Positions 26,575 to 32,582 of a DNA stretch of 32,582 bases are shown here, piece after piece. The position numbers and the translations under genes were made by a program. The stretch's first letter is position 1, and each line of letters begins with the position of its first letter. The notes under the pieces are model-generated. The model ran no database searches and was not told the DNA's origin. It was given only the letters and a program-made list of their open reading frames with translations. Source of the DNA: Maribacter sp. 4G9 (GTDB lineage Bacteria > Bacteroidota > Bacteroidia > Flavobacteriales > Flavobacteriaceae); NCBI RefSeq assembly GCF_002742265.1, contig NZ_MDGL01000063.1, positions 1-32,582 on the forward strand, read 5' to 3'.

Positions 26575-26586
26575 TTATTTATTATC

Positions 26587-26711
26587 ACCGTTTGAGCTAT
26601 GATTGCGTAGCGGACTTTCCCAACGGAAAATATCCGGGAGAAATCGTGCCCTGTTAATGTTCGATAGTTTTAAATTTAGCGAAAATGCAGCAATAAATTA
26701 TAATAGCCGGT
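26587..26711. repeat. Cruciform repeat at the left edge of the defence island
   Basis: Outer arms ACCGTTTGAGCTATGATTGC (26587-26606) and the complement of 26690-26711 match with small gaps (ACCG, GCTAT and TTGC blocks shared). Inside, CGGA-TTTCC pairs with GGAAA-TCCG (26611-26636). The region between holds no gene. I have seen similar sequences repeatedly in flavobacterial genomes next to accessory genes (from memory, no search run). It lies between the lipoprotein gene start and the gajB stop. Confidence 0.6.
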
Positions 26712-26732
26712 ATTGGCTGCAGGTATTATTTA

Positions 26733-28673
26733 TTATGCCATATTTGGCGCTTCAATTATTTCCCAAACATCTCTGTCTATTTCACTTAGAAAATTGTCAA
26801 ATCTGTCTTTTTCCACAGCTATACAAAGCAAATCAGTTGGTCGTGAAAAACCAACATAGGCCATTTTAACTGAACTCTTATGACGAACTCTGTTGTCATT
26901 GAAACTATTTCCTAAGAATTGATTTGATAGTCTTTGAGATTCATAATTGCTATGATAGTAGGATTCCAAATACAAAGTCGCACAATGCGTTTGTCCTTTT
27001 ACTGCGTGAACGCTGGTAATTTCAATTTCAAGTCCTTCTTCTTTGTAATGGTTAGTGGGTGCTAAAACTTCGGCATTGTCATTAGGAATATCGGCATTGT
27101 CAGTATGGATAAAGTCCGAACTTGCATAAATTGTTTTGTCAAACAGTGCAAGCATAATAGGAACGTATAATTTTATTCCGGTCCAAACATCTTCTGTTTT
27201 TTCTTGGATTATTCCGATTGACCAATTGTAAAGGTTCAAATTGAGTTCATCAAATTTTTGAATATCTTTGTCGTGAATAAAGTCAATGAGTTTTTTCTTT
27301 GTGAAAGGTCTGTCGTCTAAGGTGTTGATATTTTCTAAACGCAAGATTTTTAGAAAAGCGTTTAAAATGTTTTTACGCAAAGGTTCTAATGTTTGCTTTT
27401 TGTCGTAATACAGCAAATAACTTTTTAAGTTATCATAGTCTTGTTTGGGCTTTCCTTTTTCTTTCTTGAAGCCTTTATGATAATCTTCTAAACGTAGTTT
27501 TGTTGCATCATTTCTGCTTGCTTCATCGTCTTTCCACTCTGTATTCCAACAAACAACTTTTATCGGTTTTTCGGAATTTTCAAGTCCCTTTTCTTTTATA
27601 ATTTGAGCAAAACAAGGAATAATGCTGCCGATGTTTGCAGTTTCGAAAACTAAAATATGTGGTTTTATTTCACATTCGTATTTTCCGACAATATCAAACG
27701 TTGCATCGCTGTACAAGGCAAATTTTTTTACTACATCGGCAATAGGTTTGCTAAGTCGTTGGCTACCATTTAATCGTAGTATATCTGCTCTGTCTTGCCA
27801 AACATCTGTTGCTTTTACAGAATTATAGATTGCTTGGTTTTTGTCGCCAATTCTTTGAATTTTTGAAAAGCTGTTTCCTTCATCATAAAATATCTTTTCC
27901 AGCAAATTGTACTGGTGTGTGTCCATATCTTGCATCTCATCTACAAAAACTAAAGGAAATCGTTTCTGCAAAATGGTTTTGATATTGGGTATTTCTTTCA
28001 AATAACATTCCGCTAAAAAATATGCATCGTCATAATTCAAAACGCCCGATAACAAAATTTGCTGTTTTATCGTTTTGAAAGTTTTGTATGATGCGGAATT
28101 GCTGTTACTTCTTAATATTATATTACCGTTCATTCCGTTTGTCAAATTCAAATCAATGTCAAAGCGGAAATTCTTAAATAAATTTTCGGGGTCGTGCTGA
28201 TTATTTAACCAAGTTTTAGCAGCGGAATTTGGAAGATTGTTATAACGTTTCGTTGCAACTTCATTGTAAATTTCATGGTCAATTCTGTTTGGTTTTTTCT
28301 TGCACTTATGAATGTAAAATGGAATAGCCAAAAACTCATCAACAAAACTTTGTATTGTGCCAATAAAATTTGGATAGGAAAATAATCTAGGACAGTGTTT
28401 TTGAATTTTTTCTTTTATCTCGTCAATTGCTGCGTTGGTATGCGACAAAACCAAAATGCCCGATCCGCCAGCAAAAGGAAGTTTGCGTTCTAAAATAACC
28501 AACTTTGCCAGCAAAGCTGTTGTTTTTCCACTTCCTGGAACGGCCTGTAAATCAATTGTATTGAAATTGCGAATAAATGCTTTGCGTTCATCGTCAAAAG
28601 TTTTTCCCGCAGGTAACAGCAAACCTTCAGCATATTGAATTTCTTCGTCTGATATGTTAATTACCTGTGGCAT
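26733..28673 (-). CDS. gajB: GajB-like UvrD/PcrA-type helicase of a Gabija system
   Basis: A 646-residue superfamily 1A helicase. Visible motifs are Walker A in AVPGSGKTT (44-52), VLSHTNAAIDE (Ia, 75-85), Walker B VDEMQDMD (244-251), GDKNQAIYNS (III, from 276), LNGSQRLSKP (IV, from 301), TSVHAVKGQTH (V) and YVGFSRPTDLL (VI, with Arg611). It overlaps the upstream OLD-type nuclease gene by 17 nt, which is the gene order and coupling of Gabija gajA-gajB. Known GajB proteins are around 500 residues, so this one is longer, mainly between motifs. GajB is thought to sense DNA ends and relieve or promote GajA activity within a GajA-GajB complex. The gene is clearly more AT-rich than the genes to its left. 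Confidence 0.87.
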   Translation of the reverse strand: MPQVINISDEEIQYAEGLLLPAGKTFDDERKAFIRNFNTIDLQAVPGSGKTTALLAKLVILERKLPFAGGSGILVLSHTNAAIDEIKEKIQKHCPRLFSYPNFIGTIQSFVDEFLAIPFYIHKCKKKPNRIDHEIYNEVATKRYNNLPNSAAKTWLNNQHDPENLFKNFRFDIDLNLTNGMNGNIILRSNSNSASYKTFKTIKQQILLSGVLNYDDAYFLAECYLKEIPNIKTILQKRFPLVFVDEMQDMDTHQYNLLEKIFYDEGNSFSKIQRIGDKNQAIYNSVKATDVWQDRADILRLNGSQRLSKPIADVVKKFALYSDATFDIVGKYECEIKPHILVFETANIGSIIPCFAQIIKEKGLENSEKPIKVVCWNTEWKDDEASRNDATKLRLEDYHKGFKKEKGKPKQDYDNLKSYLLYYDKKQTLEPLRKNILNAFLKILRLENINTLDDRPFTKKKLIDFIHDKDIQKFDELNLNLYNWSIGIIQEKTEDVWTGIKLYVPIMLALFDKTIYASSDFIHTDNADIPNDNAEVLAPTNHYKEEGLEIEITSVHAVKGQTHCATLYLESYYHSNYESQRLSNQFLGNSFNDNRVRHKSSVKMAYVGFSRPTDLLCIAVEKDRFDNFLSEIDRDVWEIIEAPNMA

Positions 28674-30429
28674 ATTTAATCGCTTTTACAAGGTAATGAA
28701 CCGTGTCAGTTGTATCATCAACATTCAGAATTGTGTGAACTTCTTTTATTAAATCTTCATCAATAGCGTTTGCTATTTGATATGCAATTTCAGTTTTCTT
28801 TAATCCTTTATTGATTAGCTTTATTGCAAGTGCTTTTTCAAAATCGGTGTTCCAATCCGTTCCTGTGTGAATCGTTTTTACGGAGGTTTCAAATGTCGTT
28901 TTTAAACAGGCTGATTTAAACAAAGAATACTCCAAAGTCCAATTTGGTGCAGGAAAATATTTTACGCATTGCTCTGCTTTTCCGTTTATAGTTGCTAACT
29001 TTTCTTGTGTTTCCTGTTGTACGGTTTGAATTTCTCGTTTTACAAAATCATCTCCGTTTTTTTCATATTCTCTAATGTCGGAATCAGTAATTACGGCAAC
29101 AGGAATTGTCATATTGGGTTCTCCTTGTCGCAAGTAAATTTTTGAGTAGTGGTCAAAACCTGTGTGTCCAATATTTACAATGGAAACGCCTTTTTCGGTT
29201 AAGTTTATTCCGATTGCATTTGCTATGCTGGGCAAAAGAATTTCTTCAGCCCAACCCTCCACTAAAATTACGCCTTTGGCAAAAAACAAATTGGCTTTTG
29301 TAGTATCTAAAAATTTTTCTAAAAACTTATAATTGTCTTTTCCCAACTTTGTGTAAGAATCGCCCATTGGAAAAGCGTTTGCGTTATTGCAAATAATCAA
29401 GTTTTCCAGTTTGAGTTTGGAAGCCAAATTCGGGCTGTGTATTGTAAGAATAAGTTGTATAATTTTTTGTTTTTGAAATGCTTCAATGACTTGCATTTGT
29501 GCCTGTGGGTGCAAATGTGCTTCCAATTCTTCAACCAAACCTAAACGTAAACCTGACCAATTTGATTTGGTTAAATGAAGTAATTCTGCAGCCATAAACA
29601 AACGGTTCAAAGTTCCTAAGCCCGGATTTGGTTCGCCCTTCAGTGTTAAAGAAAGTTTTTCAAGAATACTTTTGATATCAGTTGATGTTGATTCAAATTC
29701 GCCTTCGTTATCCTTGCTGTAAAAACTTTTAATGTAGCTGTCAATTTTATCCTTTATCTGTTTTCCCTCTGTGGCTTTAGGCTGACCTGCATCATCAATC
29801 CCATTGAAATAATTTTCCAATTCTTCTTTTAAACCCGAAAAGATTTTTATCAGATCATTGTCTTTCTCTTTTCCTTTAAATGCTTCATCGCTCAAAAGAA
29901 TTTGTGACAAACGTGAATTCCGCTTGGCAATCAATTCGTTTTCGGCATCACGCAATGGTTTTAAGTAGGTTGCTTTCAGATATTCTTTTGCTTCTGCCGT
30001 AAGTAAATAGCCGTCTTCATCAATGCCAGCTTTTACATCGGTTGGAAATATTTTATTTGCTTGGCGTTTTACATCGTAATTGAGTTTTAAAAAAGGTTTT
30101 GCTTCTTCACCTGTTCCATTCCAACCCAACCATTCTGTAAAGTTTTTTGCTTCTTCGGGCACTAAACCTTCAAAGGTTAATTCTATACGAAAACGATTTG
30201 CTTCTTGGTGAAAATCTTTATCATTTACGCGAATATATTCGTAGCTGTGTGTTTTTAATACTAATTTGATTGCATCAATAATTGCAGTTTTACCAGAATC
30301 ATTTTCTCCAATGATAACATTCAATCCATTAGTTAAGGTTAAATCTAAATGTGGGTTTGTTTGATAATCAGTTGAATCATCAGATCCGAATTTTCTAAAG
30401 TTCCAAAGTTTTATATTCGAAAGGTACAT
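28657..30429 (-). CDS. gajA: GajA-like OLD-family ATPase/TOPRIM nuclease of a Gabija system
   Basis: A 590-residue protein. The N-terminal ABC-type ATPase has Walker A GENDSGKT (41-48), Walker B LVEELEAH (298-305) and the switch His331 in LTIHSPN. A predicted dimerisation/helical insertion (about 160-270) divides it. The C-terminal TOPRIM nuclease has Glu391 in LVEGWAEE and Asp449-x-Asp451 in ITDSDIREYE, the metal-binding acidic triad. Length and layout fit GajA (about 580 residues), a nucleotide-inhibited DNA-cleaving enzyme of anti-phage defence. It is the first gene of the pair, and its 3' end overlaps the helicase gene start by 17 nt. It starts at an ATG 9 codons ahead of FRKF, as usual in OLD proteins. 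Confidence 0.9.
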   Translation of the reverse strand: MYLSNIKLWNFRKFGSDDSTDYQTNPHLDLTLTNGLNVIIGENDSGKTAIIDAIKLVLKTHSYEYIRVNDKDFHQEANRFRIELTFEGLVPEEAKNFTEWLGWNGTGEEAKPFLKLNYDVKRQANKIFPTDVKAGIDEDGYLLTAEAKEYLKATYLKPLRDAENELIAKRNSRLSQILLSDEAFKGKEKDNDLIKIFSGLKEELENYFNGIDDAGQPKATEGKQIKDKIDSYIKSFYSKDNEGEFESTSTDIKSILEKLSLTLKGEPNPGLGTLNRLFMAAELLHLTKSNWSGLRLGLVEELEAHLHPQAQMQVIEAFQKQKIIQLILTIHSPNLASKLKLENLIICNNANAFPMGDSYTKLGKDNYKFLEKFLDTTKANLFFAKGVILVEGWAEEILLPSIANAIGINLTEKGVSIVNIGHTGFDHYSKIYLRQGEPNMTIPVAVITDSDIREYEKNGDDFVKREIQTVQQETQEKLATINGKAEQCVKYFPAPNWTLEYSLFKSACLKTTFETSVKTIHTGTDWNTDFEKALAIKLINKGLKKTEIAYQIANAIDEDLIKEVHTILNVDDTTDTVHYLVKAIKYATGN

Positions 30430-30595
30430 TCTTTATCTATAGTTGTTTATTTCGAAGGTTTTTAACTTGCTGCCAACAATTGTCTATGCGTACAATTACA
30501 TTAAATGTCTTTTTTAGGGGAAGTGCCTTAAAAATCCTACAAATTATTGATTGGTGCAAATAAAGTTTTGGTATTTGGAGGGATAAGGGTAATTT

Positions 30596-30640
30596 GAGAT
30601 TCTTCCTTCTGGCTATGCTCGTCATCAGAATGACAAAAAA
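30596..30640. repeat. Possible small dispersed repeat upstream of gajA
   Basis: GAGATTCTTCCTTCTGG and CAGAATGACAAAAAA are recognisable halves of a short inverted repeat common in bacterial intergenic regions, here with TTCTG facing CAGAA. Only one copy is in the window, so the repeat nature rests on memory. Confidence 0.3.
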
Positions 30641-30675
30641 GGGGTGTACTTAAATTCAGTTACTTTTAGCACCCC

Positions 30676-30739
30676 AAAAAAAAGCTCCCCTCCCTGAGTA
30701 GGGAGGGGTGTTCCGCGACAGCGGAACGGGGAGGGTCGG
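30676..30739. repeat. Double-hairpin palindromic repeat, copy C
   Basis: Same layout as the copies at 9785 and 10111: poly-A, CCCCTCCC (30687-30694) with GGGAGGGG (30701-30708), then GTTCCGC (30710-30716) perfectly paired with GCGGAAC (30721-30727), then GGGGAGGGTCGG. Here both arms of the second hairpin differ from copy A in a way that keeps pairing. Confidence 0.9.
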
Positions 30740-30751
30740 GATTTATAGACT

Positions 30752-30940
30752 ATACTTTTTCCATCGCCGAAAAATTATCCAAAAAGGCTAGGCTGATGCT
30801 AGGATACTTGAAATCCAAGCAGTCCTTGGGCCACATCGCCCAGACCGTTTAGGATTATATCGGAATAGGTTGCAGGGCGATTTCCTTCAACAATCGCCAA
30901 GTCCTCCAGGATTTACTACCTATCCTATCATAGGCCGGTT
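30752..30940. repeat. 189-bp dispersed repeat core, copy 2
   Basis: It aligns along its whole length with 9900-10088. The first inverted repeat has one mismatch here (ATACTTTTTC with GAAAAATTAT). The ATCGCCC/GGGCGAT pair is kept. A TAG interrupts the frame that is open in copy 1. Only the left side carries the double-hairpin repeat; none follows on the right. Confidence 0.85.
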
Positions 30941-30975
30941 TTGACTAAACACGTATTTGTGTTACATCGCCGCTA

Positions 30976-31130
30976 CCGCCAGTTTGCAACTGGCGGCCGT
31001 AACGTTAAGCAGGCAAACCTAACCCATAAAACCCTTTCGTCAATTTTTAAAATCATGTGATTCCACGACGTTGCTGCCGTGGTTATGGCCTGTATTTCTT
31101 GTTGGTACGCCACTAGTCACAGACTAGCGG
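30976..31130. repeat. Gene-free stretch with two REP-like palindromes
   Basis: CCGCCAGTT-TGC-AACTGGCGG (30976-30996) is a perfect 9-bp-arm hairpin. CCACTAGTC-ACA-GACTAGCGG (31110-31130) is a hairpin with one mismatch. Such GC-rich palindromes in an AT-rich island resemble REP units. No Y1/RAYT transposase is in the window. Nothing else is seen between them. Confidence 0.55.
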
Positions 31131-31153
31131 GAGCAGGGGGCATTTCGTTATTT

Positions 31154-31645
31154 TTATTCATTCAGTAATTTCTCATCCGTCATTATTCTAATTGCTTTTT
31201 CGGTTTCATTTTGTCCGTCAGTCATTGAGCCTGGAAGCATTATTAGTCTTTTCTTAATTTTCCCGTTATCATCTTCAAATAGAACTTCAAATCGAGAACG
31301 AGTAAGTCCGAATATTGCTTTTTTCAGTTTAATTCCTTTGATTTTATTTCTTTCAATTATCGGTGTTGTTGAATTGTTCAGACTTTTAAATATTCCGAAA
31401 ATTAAAAACAAACCAATTATTCCGTATAATACCGAGATAGAAGTCTGTCCTTTTTGAAAACTACTAAATGCAGAGTAAAGCAGGAATAAAGAAAGTCCAC
31501 CGTAAATTAATAATATTCGGCTGATATTATTTCCGACAGTCACTTTTGCTACGTTTCCAATTATTCCGTCTCTTGTTAGAATAATTTTGTCAGGTAAAAT
31601 ATGGCAAAATCCTGTTTTGGTTTTAAATGTATTTTTACTATCCAT
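31154..31645 (-). CDS. Small membrane protein of unknown function
   Basis: A 163-residue protein with two hydrophobic segments (ISRILLIYGGLSLFLLYSAF and SVLYGIIGLFLIFGIF, about residues 42-85). A soluble N-terminal part (FKTKTGFCHILPDKIILTRD) precedes them and a basic C-terminal part (GLTRSRFEVLFEDDNGKIKK) follows. I recall near-identical conserved hypothetical proteins in many Flavobacteriia, but no function. Its start overlaps the end of the upstream immunity-like gene by 8 nt, so they are cotranscribed. AT-rich like the rest of the island. Confidence 0.7.
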   Translation of the reverse strand: MDSKNTFKTKTGFCHILPDKIILTRDGIIGNVAKVTVGNNISRILLIYGGLSLFLLYSAFSSFQKGQTSISVLYGIIGLFLIFGIFKSLNNSTTPIIERNKIKGIKLKKAIFGLTRSRFEVLFEDDNGKIKKRLIMLPGSMTDGQNETEKAIRIMTDEKLLNE

Positions 31646-32051
31646 TTATTTTTTCAAAATCTTTAAAGGAGTCAAATAACTCTTTATGGTTATAGTCTAA
31701 TTCATCTCTTTTTTCTTTAAACAGATTGACAACTAAAGACCAATTTTCCTTTTCTTTTTTCCAATAGTCGGCTTCACTTGTTAAAACACTTTTTAGTAAG
31801 TCTCCTTCATAAAAATCTCCTTCAGCCAATATGTTCTGCTTTAATTCTTCAACCGCAAGAGGAATTAGATAATTTAAGCCAATGTTCTGTCCAATCATTA
31901 TCCTTAAATCTTCAATATCAAAATCTTTTAGTTGCTTTTTTCTTAATTTATGGCAAGTTGTTACTAAATGACTTGAATATTCAGATTCACTCCAAACATC
32001 TTTTTCAAGATTTTCCAAAGATTTATTTTTCCAATTATTTTCTAATTTCAT
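31638..32051 (-). CDS. CDI-type immunity protein (orphan)
   Basis: A 137-residue soluble, acidic, helical protein. The pattern WKNKSLENLEKDVW, then LVTTCHKLRKKQLKDFDIED, LRIMIGQNIGLNYLIPLAVE and EGDFYEGDLLKSVL is that of contact-dependent-inhibition immunity proteins annotated in Bacteroidota (recognised from memory). These bind and block the toxin domain delivered by a neighbouring cell. No toxin gene is within the window, so it is an orphan here. It overlaps the membrane-protein gene by 8 nt. A cruciform repeat begins 19 nt upstream of its start. Confidence 0.6.
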   Translation of the reverse strand: MKLENNWKNKSLENLEKDVWSESEYSSHLVTTCHKLRKKQLKDFDIEDLRIMIGQNIGLNYLIPLAVEELKQNILAEGDFYEGDLLKSVLTSEADYWKKEKENWSLVVNLFKEKRDELDYNHKELFDSFKDFEKING

Positions 32052-32070
32052 TTAGTCTGTCTTAATGAAT

Positions 32071-32193
32071 GCCAACGTATTCGTGTATGATTAGTTGCGT
32101 GTGTAAGTAACTAAATTAGCAAAAGAAAACGAACCAGAGGAAAATCCGTAAGATTTTCCAAGTAAGCGATAATCAAGCAATTGATTATACACG
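32071..32193. repeat. Cruciform repeat at the right edge of the island, cut by IS110 on its right side
   Basis: The outer arms CGTGTATGATTAGTTGC (32082-32098) and the complement of GCAATTGATTATACACG (32177-32193) agree at 14 of 17 positions. A central hairpin GGAAAATC-CGTAA-GATTTTCC (32139-32159) and a side hairpin TTAGTT/AACTAA (32091-32113) complete a cruciform. GCCAACG (32071-32077) to its left has no mirror on the right, where the IS110 leader begins. It resembles frequently repeated flavobacterial intergenic sequences (memory). No gene in it. Confidence 0.75.
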
Positions 32194-32208
32194 TCTTAAG
32201 TTTGATTC

Positions 32209-32380
32209 TCTTTAAATTGATGTGTTAATCAGAAAGAACAAAAGAGAGAATTAAGGTTACTATACACGGTGAAGCTTACGACTTCGACAACATTGATAAT
32301 CCTCTCTCTTTTACTACTTAAATCACGTTCAGTTCTGTGAGACTTTAGATCTCGTTTTCAAGTTGTTGTGATACCAGTAG
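32209..32380 (+). ncRNA. Candidate bridge RNA of the IS110 element
   Basis: By-eye folding gives three consecutive structures. The 5' stem-loop pairs TCTTT (32209-32213) with AAAGA (32233-32237), with TGAT/ATCA inside. Module 1 has basal stem AAAAGAGAGA (32240-32249) with TCTCTCTTTT (32303-32312), then GGTTA (32255-32259) with TAA-T-CC (32297-32302), an internal loop (32260-32269 and 32287-32296) and a terminal hairpin GAAG/CTTC (32271-32285). Module 2 has CTAC (32314-32317) with GTAG (32377-32380), ATCAC (32322-32326) with GTGAT (32368-32372), an internal loop (32327-32338 and 32354-32367) and hairpin GAGA/TCTC (32339-32353). This is the layout of IS110 bridge RNAs, with target- and donor-binding loops. 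The 5' loop strand of module 1 contains TATACACG, equal to the left flank 32186-32193. Not verified by software. Confidence 0.65.
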
Positions 32381-32405
32381 CTAGTTCTTTCATAAATCTT
32401 TTCTT

Positions 32406-32582
32406 ATGAATAAATATAAAGAAACTTATGGAGTTGACATCAGTAAGGATGTCTTTGATGTACATGGTAGTAACAAAGGTCACGACCAGTATAAGAACGA
32501 TGAAACTGGATTCAAGAAATACCTTAAAGAATTACCTGAAGGTTCATTGGTGGTAATGGAAGCTACTGGTTATTATCATTAC
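32406..32582 (+). CDS. IS110-family transposase, N-terminal part (cut by window end)
   Basis: ATG at 32406 opens a frame that runs to the last base (59 residues). The start YKETYGVDISKDVFDVHG contains the first catalytic Asp (Asp11) of the RuvC-like DEDD domain, and VVMEATGYYHY contains the Glu (Glu52). These are the first two acidic residues of IS110-type recombinases. The serine-containing C-terminal domain lies beyond the window. The long non-coding leader upstream favours the IS110 subgroup, in which the guide RNA precedes the gene, over the IS1111 subgroup. Confidence 0.88.
   Translation, partial: MNKYKETYGVDISKDVFDVHGSNKGHDQYKNDETGFKKYLKELPEGSLVVMEATGYYHY

Follow-up and report, generated by a model that had tools for sequence, protein, structure and literature searches.

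How does an IS110-group element choose the palindrome that it splits? The DNA analyzed here (the window) is contig C63 of the Maribacter sp. 4G9 genome, 32,582 nucleotides, whose last bases belong to such an element, placed directly 3' of an imperfect palindrome with arms at 32082-32101 and 32174-32193. An earlier note on this DNA had pointed out that TATACACG occurs both in the flank that closes the palindrome (32186-32193) and in the leader of the element's gene (32261-32268), within what it took for the first loop of a bridge RNA. The palindrome and both occurrences are there as described. In one copy alone, an 8-base match between loop and flank is at chance level, several further exact direct repeats of 8-9 bases being present within these 683 bases; it becomes decisive only once relatives are compared. 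With relatives compared, the observation is confirmed and its interpretation supported, and the checks that could be run on it, on the right flank, on other copies and on the covariation of the fold, came out in its favor. We consider it very probable that a bridge RNA explains the leader, its loops and the insertion site as a whole (Table 1).

Table 1. Features of the split repeat and of the element's left end, in window coordinates.
Feature	Position	Strand	Remarks
attC-like palindromic repeat, ~120 bp, split by the element	32073..32194	+	Match to repeat model R1 at 32073-32198, E 1.2e-14; right part (TGTTR...) is on the far side of the element
Left target TATACACGT, 9 nt	32186..32194	+	Ninth base belongs to the target and differs among copies
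Left end and start of IS110-group element	32195..32582	+	Cut by contig end; closest copy in G030, 96% over 388 bases, 1294 bp
Conserved bridge RNA region (predicted)	32232..32391	+	Closing helix 32232-32239 / 32384-32391
Target-binding module (predicted)	32240..32312	+	Helices 32240-32249/32303-32312 and 32255-32259/32297-32301; hairpin 32271-32274/32282-32285
Left target guide TATACACGG	32261..32269	+	9 nt; covaries with left flank over 123 insertions
Right target guide CAACA	32288..32292	+	Complementary to TGTTG of right flank; TGTTR in 65/76 rows and at both host right ends
Donor-binding module (predicted)	32324..32370	+	Helix 32324-32327/32367-32370; hairpin 32338-32342/32350-32354
Left donor guide TCAGTTCTG	32329..32337	+	8/9 equal to element right end TCAGTTCTT
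Candidate right donor guide CAAG	32359..32362	+	Would pair with CTT of left end; partial match
Recombinase gene, first 59 codons	32406..32582	+	IS110 recombinase; coding frame starts at 32406

The element was delimited by comparison with its relatives, 28 of the 60 searched giving a match. In these, it spans CTTAAG to CTCAGTTCTT, with full copies of about 1294 bp. The base preceding CTTAAG varies among copies (mostly T or G, some A) and is the ninth base of the target; the start given in the earlier note, 32194, was off by one. A second left end, identical over 172 bases and also directly 3' of TATACACGT, finishes contig C68, in a palindromic repeat other than that of the window. Two right ends, of 175 and 176 bp and 99% identical to the G030 copy, open contigs C126 and C148, which then continue as TGTTAGCAAAAG and TGTTGGCATACG. 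The host genome has two copies of the element, the middle of which is missing from the assembly, and either right end (C126 or C148) may belong to either left end (C63 or C68). Because the middle is missing and the gene is cut, a PF01548 search of the host assembly found no gene, and the window's own codons have no match to IS110 family models, again for a cut gene. The full-length relative protein P0002, from the G030 copy, is over the cut-off for both PF01548 and PF02371 and scores 224.7 bits against NF033542, the NCBI model of IS110 RNA-guided transposases (cut-off 140). The gene is preceded by 211 bp and followed by about 115 bp in the Maribacter copies (about 33 in some relatives), which gives the IS110-group arrangement, the left end being the longer of the two and holding the bridge RNA. 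An Rfam search of the window found nothing.

Both host right ends are followed by TGTT, and the site reads TATACACG-N-TGTT. This is what the earlier note had predicted for the right flank, and the joined sites, TATACACGTTGTT, contain its predicted 12-mer TATACACGTTGT. The same 12-mer occurs uninterrupted twice in the host genome, each time at the end of such a palindromic repeat. Joined flanks equal uninterrupted sites, and insertion is thus without target duplication. A right end could be located in 76 rows; of their right flanks, 43 read TGTTG and 22 TGTTA, and 11 depart from TGTTR. Positions 8-9 of the target are GT, AT, GG or one of eight other pairs, and the element's right end finishes in TT; with this variable target core, we find no core dinucleotide shared by donor and target, a feature described for IS621 that we do not take as family-defining.

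The repeats that serve as targets resemble the attC-type sites of integron-like cassettes, a likeness that the earlier note had missed. Searching the host genome with the repeat model gave at least 42 matches at E up to 0.01 (150 of 2914 candidates scored), and among these at least 42 matches, 10 of the 11 contigs with two or more have them on one strand only. Their inner arms vary (TATACAC, TATATAC, TTTATAC, TATAGCC and others). The alternative, that they are ordinary REP-like palindromes and not cassette recombination sites, is unlikely in our judgment. In its favor, the boxes of the repeats read YAAC...GTTR and do not fit the full attC box consensus, RYYYAAC/GTTRRRY, and matches to the integron integrase model TIGR02249 are under the curated cut-off in 6/6 genomes (the host and five further genomes of the genus, G001, G007, G012, G032 and G033). 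Such weaker matches are also present in 14/14 control genomes.

The arrangement of the sequence between repeats bears on both readings. Each cassette of an integron array opens with bases complementary to those that close it just ahead of the following site. Counted over every neighboring pair among the 42 matches, complementary cassette ends of 9 nt are found in only 8 of 21 pairs, a point on the side of REP-like palindromes; this count replaces an earlier 7/7 on hand-picked pairs. On the same side, CATC replaces YAAC at the start of 15 of the 42 repeats (on host contigs C178, C42, C38, C17, C122 and others), and none of the six scorable pairs in which the next repeat starts with CATC follows the 9-nt rule. 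Five of these scored pairs have the identical end sequence ATGATGTAC, which is possibly a common element end abutting the repeats. A single pair with a GAAC start fails as well, and two neighboring pairs are unscorable, one of them the window's own (26586-32073). Against REP-like palindromes, where the next repeat starts with YAAC, 8 of 12 scorable pairs have a 9-nt run and one an 8-nt run, with three failures (C177 224-7779, 7.5 kb apart; C126 1030-3306; and a pair on C114), and all three stretches that follow an element right end (C68, C126, C148) have the 9-nt run. The run shared by the outer ends of one same repeat is short (2, 6, 3, 3, 2), and the confinement of matches to one strand in 10 of 11 contigs also speaks for cassettes. 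A wider set of neighbors, misdetected ones included, gives 3.24/6 against 1.99 (0/20000). The count over all pairs does not alter our odds for the cassette reading, since 11 stretches still have a 9-nt run and the failures fall mainly on CATC repeats, and we infer that the target repeats are gene-cassette recombination sites. At eight places in G007 (on C1, such as 3594309-3595127) there is a 298-aa tyrosine recombinase frame with identical scores, in some cases beside cassette repeats; it is a candidate cassette recombinase, or belongs to a mobile element of its own.

How the element finds one such repeat was addressed over 160 sources, made up of 78 of the 80 named loci (L183 and L185 are without a leader) and 82 genome stretches. 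Dropping 27 of the 160 (no recognizable left end or loop, or cut) left 134 rows, 123 of them unique. When the 9-nt flank is scanned along the leader at all offsets inside the element, the best match falls four bases after AAGG, at the guide offset, with 7.24/9 against a mean of 2.57 and a maximum of 4.06 elsewhere (n=123). The match that the earlier note placed at 32261-32268 stands, with a guide that is 9 nt and not 8 nt long. Nine bases match in 22 rows, eight in 33, seven in 43, six in 13 and five or fewer in 12. Permuting the flanks gives 6.06 +/- 0.08, and 0/5000 permutations, which ignore relatedness, reach 7.24. Keeping one row per distinct guide/flank pair (42 pairs) gives 5.29/7 against 4.07, reached by 0/20000 shuffles that likewise ignore relatedness. 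The flank, however, is not inherited with a moving element.

The same correspondence is seen at the level of guide classes, four of which we defined after inspecting the data. The flank is of the matching class in 112 of 123 rows; the other 11 have a guide or flank in 'other', and no two named classes are cross-paired. TAYAC-type guides are at TAYAC flanks in 95/98 rows, AGCC guides at their own flanks in 6/6, AACC-type in 5/5 and TAGG in 6/6. Other copies with the same loop sit at the same kind of target. For the genus set alone, guide and flank agree in class in 26 of the 42 rows that belong to the three main classes, compared with 17.6 +/- 3.1 in shuffles (reached by 111/20000), and 23 further rows fall outside these three classes. 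Guide and flank are equal at 9/9 positions in, for example, L205, L194, L097 and L111. Only 22/123 guides reach this, a measure of mismatch tolerance, and the rows with five or fewer matches include L104, L105, L093, L095 and L085, the last of which is probably mis-anchored. Comparison of insertions thus finds the first loop covarying with the target, as in bridge RNAs, for the left guide. On the right side neither guide nor flank varies, which makes this a match and not covariation.

These data also weigh on two other explanations of the loop match. The recombinase might recognize the folded palindrome (cruciform) alone, the match being incidental: most of the insertions examined occupy one position in palindromes of a single kind, and the permuted match is already 6.06/9 because most targets are alike. 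Guide and flank nevertheless change together across four classes and within one genus, and TATAGCC arms exist in the host genome, yet 0/98 rows with TAYAC-type guides sit at one, so we hold recognition by shape alone to be very improbable. Still less credible is a loop that merely records the last flank, captured at transposition, since despite flank and loop being equal or nearly so in many single elements, the two host copies have a common loop in different repeats, and the eight copies in G007, with one identical leader, lie beside two flank types (four TATACAC and four TATATAC), an unchanged guide beside different flanks that argues against copying of the flank into the loop.

The bridge RNA reading further predicts a fold that is preserved among relatives. 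A consensus from 32 aligned leaders has 35 pairs in six helices, with 98.5% of cells pairing against 92.4% in shuffles. The two modules that the earlier note had folded by eye are borne out by two-sided changes in 13 of 35 pairs, against 5.7 in shuffled and 0-4 in slid versions, a comparison in which the structure is favored over the slid versions by having been derived from the same alignment. Compensatory base changes are present in the modules of both loops, and the largest share of compensated pairs is in helices 4 (the target-loop hairpin), 5 and 6 (the donor module). The 5' stem-loop that had also been described was not recovered as a conserved feature, with no consensus pair before alignment column 50. 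Single-sequence folding was rejected as support, the leader not being separable from shuffles: its fold is not unusually stable (z 0.15), and 107/200 shuffles fold as well.

The second loop supplies the donor match that could not be shown from the left end alone, over 8/9 bases on the left side and in part on the right. The left donor guide, compared with the right ends of the copies, differs from the right end in its last base alone. Its variable base agrees with that of the right end as C/C in 73 and T/T in 2 rows, with 1 unscored (n=76); by eye, L192-L195, which are copies in a single species, agree as T/T too. The left donor guide covaries with the donor end in these few elements, and the right donor guide remains a partial match.

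Taken together, we describe an IS110-group element with a probable bridge RNA encoded in its left end, whose mechanism would be that of known bridge RNAs. Comparison shows its anatomy, the covariation of left guide and flank, the paired helices and the left donor match. Points that count against this reading are the variable target core, the mismatches that guides tolerate, the 11 right flanks other than TGTTR, the 27 sources dropped, shuffles blind to relatedness and the ordinary stability of the single-sequence fold. By analogy with IS621 and ISEc21, the RNA is presumably made, bound by the recombinase and able to direct recombination. The leader would be transcribed as the bridge RNA, the second loop of which would pair with the element's own abutted ends, and the recombinase would insert the element at the 3' end of attC-like repeats, with N to its left and TGTTR to its right, in one orientation and without target duplication.

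IS1111-attC elements have reportedly been treated by Tetu and Holmes in 2008 and by Post and Hall in 2009. ISKpn4 and ISPst6, studied by Siddiquee et al. (2024, PMC11187229), are RNA-guided DEDD elements targeting one attC end of gene cassettes. The Maribacter element resembles them as an RNA-guided DEDD element on one end of attC-like sites; unlike these IS1111-group elements, in which the RNA is downstream of the gene, it is an IS110-group element of Flavobacteriaceae with its RNA upstream. With the IS110-type ISEc21 and ISMch6, also in PMC11187229, it shares the upstream RNA, a guide that has been redirected in nature together with its flank, and movement of a short-ended mini element; their target is linear and lies in an IS3-family gene, whereas the natural redirection of the Maribacter lineage extends over many genera. 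In the sections of Durrant et al. (2024, PMC11208160) concerned with IS621, the bridge RNA of this IS110-group element is in the left end and has two internal loops, the 5' loop strands pairing with the bottom strand over 8-9 nt and the 3' strands with the top strand over 4-7; palindromic repeats are among the sites that IS110 elements enter, and the donor loop is more conserved than the first. The Maribacter element is alike in all of these respects. It differs in having no common CT core (IS621 has one), no conserved 5' stem-loop and an attC-like site as target, and its closing helix around both modules is not part of the IS621 description in those sections.

The mechanism, the family (PMC11208160, PMC11187229) and attC-end targeting by IS1111-group elements (PMC11187229) are already known, and since integrons are recorded in Bacteroidota (PMC8618304, PMC9668308), arrays of cassettes are in themselves nothing new for the phylum. 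Among the open-licence papers listed for IS110 bridge RNA, attC, flavobacterial palindromes and Bacteroidota integrons, judged by title and the start of the abstract, none was on the element or its target. The novelty lies in the lineage, in the guide series that it forms in nature and, for Flavobacteriaceae, in a cassette-like target. One IS lineage with four guide classes at matching sites, and with several near-identical copies in some genomes, forms a natural reprogramming series from which one can learn how far bridge RNAs tolerate mismatches and which rules govern their core, and an IS110-group parallel to the IS1111-attC elements. With about even confidence, we propose that the recombination sites on which this Flavobacteriaceae IS110 lineage lives belong to a Bacteroidota cassette system without a recognizable integron integrase, the left guide tracking the inner arm, which varies with the repeat class, and the right guide fixed on the shared TGTTR crossover box. 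If this is true, any cassette junction of the right repeat class would be a target. The lineage also points to a cassette system in marine Bacteroidota.

Several relatives depart from the common organization. Mini-elements measuring about 90 bp or 186 bp (L106, L109 and L110 in the genus relative G002; L104 and L105 in G036) consist of a left end joined to a right end with no gene, have a TGTT right flank in 4/5 cases and look like non-autonomous derivatives. In L052 (G001:C1:3832984-3835659; L039 and L218 are the same place), a 75-bp left end breaks off after its guide, TATATACGG, and a full copy begins right there, as if it had used the guide DNA of another copy as its target; this arrangement is the only case among the loci compared. 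A second subfamily (L097, L098, L100-L102 and L111) has the guide TTTAGGTTT or TATAGGTTT, a different repeat class and a left end of CCTAAG, with a protein identity of 51-53% for L097 and L101 (L111 left out).

Upstream of the split repeat, the window encodes on the reverse strand a Gabija pair (26733-30429; GajA, 590 aa, 751 bits; GajB, 646 aa, 848 bits; PADLOC) and a CDI immunity protein (31638-32051; PF18616, CdiI_3), the stretch ending at the split repeat. A neighboring 163-aa frame (31154-31645) has no Pfam match. On the forward strand, 26586-26712 matches the repeat model weakly (E 0.005), with no scorable GTT box; if this repeat is real, two repeats would enclose the Gabija pair and the immunity gene.
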